A stretch of DNA of 64,000 bases from Sphingobium sp. (GTDB lineage: Bacteria; Pseudomonadota; Alphaproteobacteria; Sphingomonadales; Sphingomonadaceae). Of this stretch, positions 48,137 to 50,547 are shown in pieces. The stretch spans positions 277,001-341,000 of the forward strand of contig CP136575.1 in NCBI GenBank assembly GCA_035196065.1, given 5' to 3'. The translations under genes and the position numbers were made by a program. Position 1 is the first letter of the stretch, and every line of letters starts with the position of its first letter. Under the pieces are notes generated by a model. It had not been told where the DNA came from. It did not search any database and was given only the letters and a program-made list of their open reading frames with translations.

Positions 48137-48805
48137 ATGAGCACCCAACCGCTCCGCATCGACATTGTCTCGGACGTTGTCTGCCCATGGTGCATCATCG
48201 GCTACAAGCAGGTTGAAAGGGCGCTGACCCTGTTGCCCGAACCGGTCGAGGCCGAGTTTCACTGGCATCCGTTCGAACTCAACCCCGACATGCCGGCAGA
48301 GGGGGAGGATGCCGCAGCCCATATTGCGCGCAAATATGGCCGCAGCCCCGAAGAGGGCAAAGCGGTACGCGACCGGATCCGCACCACCGCCGCCGAGCTT
48401 GGTTTCAGCTTTGGTGAAAATGGCGCGCGGCGGCTCTGCAATACATTTGACGCGCATAAATTGCTGACGCGGGCGGGCACCGAAAAGGGGTGGCATGCGC
48501 AGACGCAGCTCAAACTCGCCCTGTTTTCCGCTTATTTCCAGCAGGGCAAGGATGTCAGCGACCGGGCAGTGCTGCTCGACATTGCCGAGGCGACCGGGCT
48601 TGACCGCGCAGAGTGCGCGCAATGGCTGGACGATGACGCGCTGGCAAAGGAAGTGCGCGGCGAGCAAAGCTATTGGATCGGCGAAAATGTCAGCGGCGTG
48701 CCCGCCATCATCTTTGACGGCAAATATATGGTCCCCGGCGCGCAGAGCGCAGAAACCTTTGCGCAGGTGATCGGCAAGGTGCTGGCAAAACGGGAAGCCG
48801 CCTAA
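48137..48805 (+). CDS. DsbA-family oxidoreductase, FrnE-like
   Basis: 222-aa cytoplasmic thioredoxin-fold protein of the FrnE/2-hydroxychromene isomerase-like group. The active site CPWC is at residues 16-19 (SDVVCPWCIIGYKQVE), with the cis-Pro loop SGVPAIIFDGKY. No signal peptide. It ends the mutY operon, which joins DNA oxidation repair with redox enzymes. Its stop shares four bases with the convergent small regulator gene. Confidence 0.9.
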   Translation: MSTQPLRIDIVSDVVCPWCIIGYKQVERALTLLPEPVEAEFHWHPFELNPDMPAEGEDAAAHIARKYGRSPEEGKAVRDRIRTTAAELGFSFGENGARRLCNTFDAHKLLTRAGTEKGWHAQTQLKLALFSAYFQQGKDVSDRAVLLDIAEATGLDRAECAQWLDDDALAKEVRGEQSYWIGENVSGVPAIIFDGKYMVPGAQSAETFAQVIGKVLAKREAA

Positions 48806-49090
48806 GCCGCAACCTGCACGCCATATTTGCGCATCTTCTCAATCAAGGTAGTGCGCTTCAGCGTCAACAGCCGCGCCGCATCAGAAACAATGCCATCGGC
48901 CAGTTCGAGCGCCATGGTGATGCGATCACATTCGATCGCCTCTATTTCCTGACGCAGGTCGATCGGCCGGTCTTTACTGGGTGCAGGCGACGCAGGAACA
49001 AGGGACAAGGGACAAGGGCTGCACGGCAGGGCGCGCATCTGCCAGATCAAGAAAGCTGCGCTGGGAAAATTGCGATTCCGCCTCGAACAA
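48802..49090 (-). pseudogene. Small Fis-type helix-turn-helix regulator, apparently frameshifted by a 7-bp tandem repeat
   Basis: The C-terminal 50 residues (IDLRQEIEAIECDRITMALE, then SDAARLLTLKRTTLIEKMRKYG) are a Fis/NtrC-type DNA-binding helix-turn-helix. Upstream, three tandem copies of TTGTCCC (minus strand; 48998-49018, last copy imperfect at the far side) break the frame. With one copy fewer, the frame joins to a TTG at 49088-49090 with GAGG ten bases upstream and gives a 93-residue protein opening FEAESQFSQRSFLDLADARP. As sequenced, only a frame starting near 49036 or 49134 reaches the domain, through a low-quality N-terminus. So it is either broken, phase-variable, or a short form. 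Confidence 0.6.
48998..49018. repeat. Three tandem 7-bp repeats (ACAAGGG)
   Basis: ACAAGGG occurs three times without gaps at 48998-49004, 49005-49011 and 49012-49018. Since 7 is not a multiple of 3, gain or loss of a copy shifts the reading frame of the Fis-type gene that contains it. Confidence 0.9.
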
Positions 49091-49191
49091 GCACTGTAAC
49101 CCTCAGTCAGCGCCGATAACGGCATGTTAACCATCTGCAGGCATAGTCGAATCTGACTGCAACAGGTGCGCTCCTAGAACGGGACCGGGTT

Positions 49192-50547
49192 ATGGATAAT
49201 TTACGCGGATTTGGACCATCAGGCGAAAATCAGCATGATGGCGGGCTATATGATGCGCCTGCCTATGCCAGCTTCGAGGAGCAGGAAGATGCTGCGATCG
49301 AGGCCCCGCCGGTCGTTTCTGGCGACGAGCGACGGATGCAGGTGCGCGCCTATAATTTCTGGACGGCCCAGCTGGGCGAAGGCAATTACCCCAATATAGA
49401 AGAACTCGACCCCGGGAGTGTCGACGATTTCCGGGACTTTTCGGTCCTTCTCGATTTCACATCGGGCATCGAAAACCCGTCAATCCAGTTTCTAGGCGCG
49501 GCACTGCGCCGCGAATGCGGACTGGCCGACGATATTGGCTATCTCGATCAGGTACCGTCCCGTTCGCTGCTATCCCGGATCACAGACCATTATCTGCAGA
49601 TCATCGCCAATCGCGCACCCATCGGGTTCGAGGCCGAATTCGTCAACGATCGCGGCGTCAACATCATGTATCGCGGTATCTTGCTGCCTTATTCGTCCGA
49701 CGATGACACGATCGATTTCATCTATGGCGTGATCAATTGGAAAGAGGGCGCGCCCGCAGAAATCGTCAAACCGCTGCAAGCAGAGGTTGAAGCAGCGCTT
49801 GCCGCCATGCCGGTGCGCACGACCAATGTGCCGATATGGGCAGATGGCCCCGCTGCTTCGGATTTCGAGGCGGAAGATCAGGCCGGCGAACTTATGCTCA
49901 ATTCCCATTTTGCGGCCGCCGTAATCGCGACCGATGAAAAAGAGCCGGACGAGGATTCGGGCCTTGCCGATTGGCTACAAATAGCCCGCAAAAGTGCAGT
50001 AGTCGCGCGCGAACAAGATCTGCGCAGCCGGGATACACTGTATCGCGCCATCGGCCGGGCCTATGATTTCTCGCTCGCCGTCGAACGCTTCCCCGAGGAA
50101 TATGCCGCTTTGCTGGCCGACAACCACATAAGCGTGCAGGAACGCGCGCCGATGACACCGATTGTGAAGCTGATATTCGGCAGCGGCTATGACAAGACCC
50201 GCTTGACCGAATTTGCCGCGGCGCTCGATTATGCTCATCGCAACATTGTACCCTGCGGCGGCCTTGCCGATCTGCTCACCCTGCATGACGGCGGCCTCAA
50301 GGGCATTGTCCAAGCCGAGCGACGTGCCCGCAAGGTCGCTAGGGGAGAGCATGTGGCCCCCGCCACGCTTGACCCACGCCCGCGCCTGCGCGCTGCACGC
50401 GCCCGCAGCCTCTCCGAATTCGCACATGGCAATGACGAATTCGTCGTTCTGGTTGCCCGCCGCGATGGCGATGGCGAAGTTGTGATTGTTGGCGCGGTTG
50501 AGGATAGCGGGCTGACCGACAAGGTGCTCGCCAAGACTGTCGTCTAA
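49192..50547 (+). CDS. PAS-domain protein (PAS_5/DUF1457-like)
   Basis: 451 aa, cytoplasmic. Residues about 50-185 (RMQVRAYNFWTAQLGEGNYP, VLLDFTSGIENPSIQFLGAA, EAEFVNDRGVNIMYRGILLP) follow the PAS_5 pattern found alone in alphaproteobacteria. The C-terminal half is helical and Ala/Arg-rich, with no kinase, GGDEF or other output domain that I recognise. It could be a sensor or adaptor. It diverges from the small Fis-type gene, and their closeness suggests a functional pair, which is inference. Confidence 0.75.
   Translation: MDNLRGFGPSGENQHDGGLYDAPAYASFEEQEDAAIEAPPVVSGDERRMQVRAYNFWTAQLGEGNYPNIEELDPGSVDDFRDFSVLLDFTSGIENPSIQFLGAALRRECGLADDIGYLDQVPSRSLLSRITDHYLQIIANRAPIGFEAEFVNDRGVNIMYRGILLPYSSDDDTIDFIYGVINWKEGAPAEIVKPLQAEVEAALAAMPVRTTNVPIWADGPAASDFEAEDQAGELMLNSHFAAAVIATDEKEPDEDSGLADWLQIARKSAVVAREQDLRSRDTLYRAIGRAYDFSLAVERFPEEYAALLADNHISVQERAPMTPIVKLIFGSGYDKTRLTEFAAALDYAHRNIVPCGGLADLLTLHDGGLKGIVQAERRARKVARGEHVAPATLDPRPRLRAARARSLSEFAHGNDEFVVLVARRDGDGEVVIVGAVEDSGLTDKVLAKTVV

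Follow-up and report, generated by a model that had tools for sequence, protein, structure and literature searches.

A variable heptanucleotide repeat at a probable flagellar deletion scar in Sphingobium sp.

Introduction

Does a short tandem repeat beside a Fis-type helix-turn-helix (HTH) frame switch a regulator, or does it mark the place where a larger set of genes has been lost? The question is raised by a locus of Sphingobium sp. lying in a stretch of 64 kb, which was analysed as a whole and is called here the window. An earlier note on this DNA had proposed that adjacent seven-base units interrupt a regulatory gene and that the gain or loss of one unit turns it on or off. Comparison with related genomes leads with high confidence to another answer. 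The locus would be a deletion scar, namely a relic of flagellar loss with a polymorphic microsatellite at its junction, rather than a phase-variable regulator, and the seven-base repeat at the seam probably switches nothing. The features on which this reading relies are collected in Table 1.

Table 1. Features at and around the seam (window coordinates).
Feature	Position	Strand	Remark
DsbA-family oxidoreductase gene	48137..48805	+	Left flank of the ancestral flagellar cluster
Chimeric 110-codon frame	48802..49134	-	fliA-downstream DNA and antisense fliA, repeat, HTH stump
C-terminal stump of a sigma-54-dependent flagellar activator	48802..49018	-	About 71 codons: linker end and HTH_8
ACAAGGG x3 repeat (minus strand CCCTTGT)	48998..49018	.	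Seam between both gene stumps
fliA 3' stump (RARICQIKKAALGKLRFRLEQAL*)	49028..49099	+	Antisense is the previously proposed N-terminus FEAESQFSQRSF
Gene of a conserved 451-residue protein	49192..50547	+	Right flank; follows fliA directly in G032, G025 and G001

An activator reduced to its C-terminal end

The HTH frame, which the earlier note took to be interrupted and frameshifted by the repeat, is open throughout the window from an ATG at 49134 to the stop at 48802. Its C-terminal part carries an HTH of the Fis type (HTH_8, PF02954, E 3.5e-11; HTH_50 was matched weakly), as is characteristic of sigma-54-dependent activators of the NtrC/FlbD type. The sigma-54 interaction AAA+ domain of such activators is absent from this frame in the domain search, which returned the two HTH families only. 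What is kept of the activator is about its 70 last codons, whose stop and that of the convergent DsbA-family gene overlap by 4 bp.

When the conserved C-terminal 62 residues were used as query against 61 genomes, matches of up to 92% identity were found, and all strong ones (E below 1e-10) came from the same genus and fell within frames of about 340-410 codons. These intact homologues are sigma-54-dependent activators of 344-358 residues with an AAA+ domain and a Fis-type HTH, and it is they that were found in place of the joined protein expected among homologues. For instance, the activator of G025 has 344 residues with PF00158, an AAA lid and HTH_8. The intact gene comes last in a flagellar operon, flgI-(gap)-flgK-flgL-motA-motB-activator, that is convergent with the same DsbA-family gene that borders the window frame. 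The two genes adjoin in G032 (L035) and G025 (L036), and the DsbA-family gene also adjoins the activator in G029 and G001.

The 110-codon frame was considered as the native form with its own N-terminus and was rejected, no intact homologue carrying that N-terminus. The only matches of its first 37 residues are to fliA and spacer DNA upstream of the 49192 gene; in relatives this part is found elsewhere, beside the 49192 gene, where the plus strand encodes FliA.

The end of fliA and the missing interval

On the plus strand of the window, GRARICQIKKAALGKLRFRLEQAL*, ending at 49099, is 75-86% identical to the tails of FliA proteins. The match reaches 13 identities out of 18, versus at most 7 anywhere else in the window. 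In the flagellated G032 and G025, fliA sits between flhA and the 49192 gene. The 451-residue product of the latter has no Pfam match and occurs in most genomes of the genus.

In two relatives that keep the flagellar cluster on one contig, the 3' ends of fliA and of the activator are 16.0 kb (G036) and 16.2 kb (G011) apart, with flhA, flgI, flgK, flgL, motA and motB between them. In the window fewer than 20 bp separate these two ends, with the repeat located at the seam. The repeat unit nearest the HTH aligns with the activator linker (CCTTGTTCCTGC vs TCGTTCGTTCCTGC in G029), and the similarity to FliA starts a few bases past the opposite end of the tract. Neither FlhA nor FlgI was found in the complete 3.02 Mb genome to which the window belongs, and FliA/WhiG gave no match over the cut-off there. 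The locus thus has what is expected of a deletion relic: the flanks are conserved, the two gene ends keep their ancestral orientation, the interior is missing and, of the flagellar export and basal-body genes, those of FlhA and FlgI were not found in the genome. Some of the relatives are draft metagenome assemblies in which the exact junctions are less certain.

From this gene order we infer the following history. In the ancestor, the DsbA-family gene and the 49192 gene would have been separated by about 16 kb of flagellar genes, with the activator, motB, motA, flgL, flgK, flgI and others at one end and flhA and fliA at the other, so that the 3' ends of the activator and of fliA were outermost in the cluster. 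A deletion in one or several steps would have spared only about the last 70 activator codons on the minus strand and the last 24 fliA codons on the plus strand. One repeat unit would descend from the activator linker that it matches, the extra units having arisen at or after the junction, and since the junction formed the repeat would have gained or lost one unit.

In addition, a flagellin fragment is present outside the window at genome position 350480-350665 (L055:1504-2073), about 24 kb from the scar. It is cut at its 5' end, where the first ~77 model positions are missing, and extends past the normal end. This fragment is a second flagellar relic near the scar.

Other reduced flagellar loci in the genus

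Partial deletions of the same cluster were also observed in G029 and G001, and a complete FlhA is absent from both. In G029 (L033:3030-4076), an open frame fuses 60 antisense fliA codons to an activator devoid of its first ~54 residues; the antisense fliA frame is the same as in the joined frame of L063, a close relative described below. In G001 (L034:5207-6337), an open frame joins about 220 residues of FlgL to the sigma-54 activator's C-terminal half, and next to this fusion lie the end of flhA and an entire fliA. More widely, FlhA had no match in 13 of the 23 genus genomes searched in a first batch, and one more has a fragment only. It was not found either in G004, where a near-complete sigma-54 activator and fliA lie side by side about 0.8 kb apart (L044:10001-12502), which suggests that regulators can persist after the flagellar structural genes have gone. 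The same interval has apparently been reduced differently in other members of the genus. Nothing directly relevant was found in the literature on flagellar loss in Sphingorhabdus or Sphingomonadales.

Is the HTH stump retained?

Two observations speak against a plain relic. The HTH stump is not visibly rotting: between the window and L063, its last 53 codons differ by three synonymous and no nonsynonymous changes, and its dN/dS versus relatives is 0.05-0.08, compared with 0.01-0.05 among the relatives themselves. Moreover, in each of the fusions of G029, G001 and L063 the frame of the activator stump has remained open, an outcome with a chance of about 1/27. Together with the activator and fliA that G004 keeps without FlhA, these data could be taken to mean that the stump still works as a short DNA-binding protein, starting near or within the repeat and unswitched. 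We consider this unlikely, although it is the alternative that fares best. The promoter, the AAA+ domain and the target regulon are all gone, and the internal starts have no obvious ribosome-binding site. Besides, three changes are too few to show selection, and nonsynonymous change towards the relatives is somewhat above that of other pairs. As judged from these substitution counts, the dN/dS of the stump would fit a fairly recent truncation as well as a weak retention, and the HTH stub may still have some residual expression.

The repeat and its variation

As described in the earlier note, three adjacent and perfect ACAAGGG units are present, at 48998-49004, 49005-49011 and 49012-49018. In microsatellite statistics computed on the 64-kb window, this tract is the sole perfect seven-base unit with at least three copies, and no such array occurred in 30 Markov shuffles of the window. 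The two-unit string has no second site in the 3.02 Mb genome, a single complete contig. The count expected to vary in sibling strains does so, since a near-identical metagenome-assembled relative, L063 (JAJTFR010000014.1, Sphingomonadales bacterium isolate 49614_E53), has two units where the window has three. The two sequences are 98.4% identical across 10.8 kb around the locus, and the repeat unit is the sole gap in this alignment, which supports a slippage-like change. The slipped-strand proposal is therefore upheld for the one-unit variation, which would have arisen by slippage, and not for the switching of a regulator by the tract.

An error in the assembled repeat count, with no biological variation behind it, might be suspected because L063 is a metagenome assembly. 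It is improbable, given that the tract of 14-21 bp is well inside one read, that the genome of the window is complete in one contig and that no other gap exists in the 10.8 kb.

A phase-variable small Fis-type regulator, in which gain or loss of the 7-bp unit swaps the N-termini of the HTH or turns it on and off, would account for the truly different unit number in near-identical genomes and for the conserved HTH sequence. Removing one unit does, as had been predicted, bring FEAESQFSQRSFLDLADARPAVQPLSLVP into the HTH frame, and two units thus join this frame to another upstream one. The TTG start (49090-49088, minus strand) and the GAGG site (49104-49101, 10 nt upstream of the TTG) had also been read correctly. 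The N-terminus that they introduce, FEAESQFSQRSF, is however antisense to the 24 final codons of fliA, a different gene on the opposite strand, FEAESQFSQRSFLDLADARPAV being the antisense of the FliA tail GRARICQIKKAALGKLRFRLEQAL. The two-unit L063, which has the repeat number of the supposed 'on' state, reads LFEAESQFS*RSSLDLADARPAVQPLSLVLASP... in its joined frame, a TAG stop falling inside the proposed N-terminus. The only possible starts of the L063 HTH are GTG or TTG codons beside or within the repeat (71 codons). The TTG within the tract, present in the window too, stays in frame with the HTH at any unit number, so that unit number gives no clear on/off state of the HTH. No sigma-70-like promoter was found near the locus by a scan for sigma-70-type sites. 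Classical switching tracts are longer than three units, and the present tract is short beside them. While the repeat number does differ between close genomes, as in a contingency gene, neither repeat state yields a complete product, the AAA+ domain being deleted in both genomes. Switching of this kind is accordingly very doubtful. The least probable proposal is that the stump is kept as a small Fis-like protein with an antisense-fliA N-terminus toggled by the repeat; if this were true, a deletion scar would here have given rise to a new switchable gene.

Comparison with known systems

Reading the locus as a flagellar deletion scar replaces a false call of a phase switch by a well-supported history in which about 16 kb of flagellar genes were lost. 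It also illustrates that a start codon preceded by a Shine-Dalgarno-like site can introduce an attractive N-terminus which is really antisense to the end of an unrelated gene, and that deletion junctions can hold variable repeats that regulate nothing.

The intact relatives resemble FlbD of Caulobacter and FlgR of Campylobacter, which likewise combine a sigma-54 AAA+ domain with a Fis-type HTH in a flagellar cluster, and they match the NCBIfam FlbD and FlgR models, below cut-off, across the AAA+/HTH part. They differ from both in having no N-terminal receiver domain, and in the window copy the AAA+ domain and most of the linker are missing as well. Of FliA (sigma-28), the plus strand still shows the last 24 codons, the other ~220 having been deleted.

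Slipped-strand phase variation of flagellar regulators is known for flgR and flgS in C. jejuni and for fliP in H. pylori (PMC3930126), and switching by a heptanucleotide repeat for pglE in N. meningitidis (PMC7157529). The ACAAGGG tract shares with these a short tandem repeat in a reading frame whose unit number varies between genomes. However, they are complete genes with demonstrated switching, whereas the present gene is a truncated one with its repeat placed at a deletion seam, and switching of the flgR (PMC3930126) or heptanucleotide-tract (PMC7157529) kind is not supported at this locus. The closer likeness, with no essential difference, is with flagellar-cluster losses that leave pseudogene remnants, in which the flanks are conserved, the cluster is gone and gene ends remain, the addition here being a polymorphic microsatellite at the junction.
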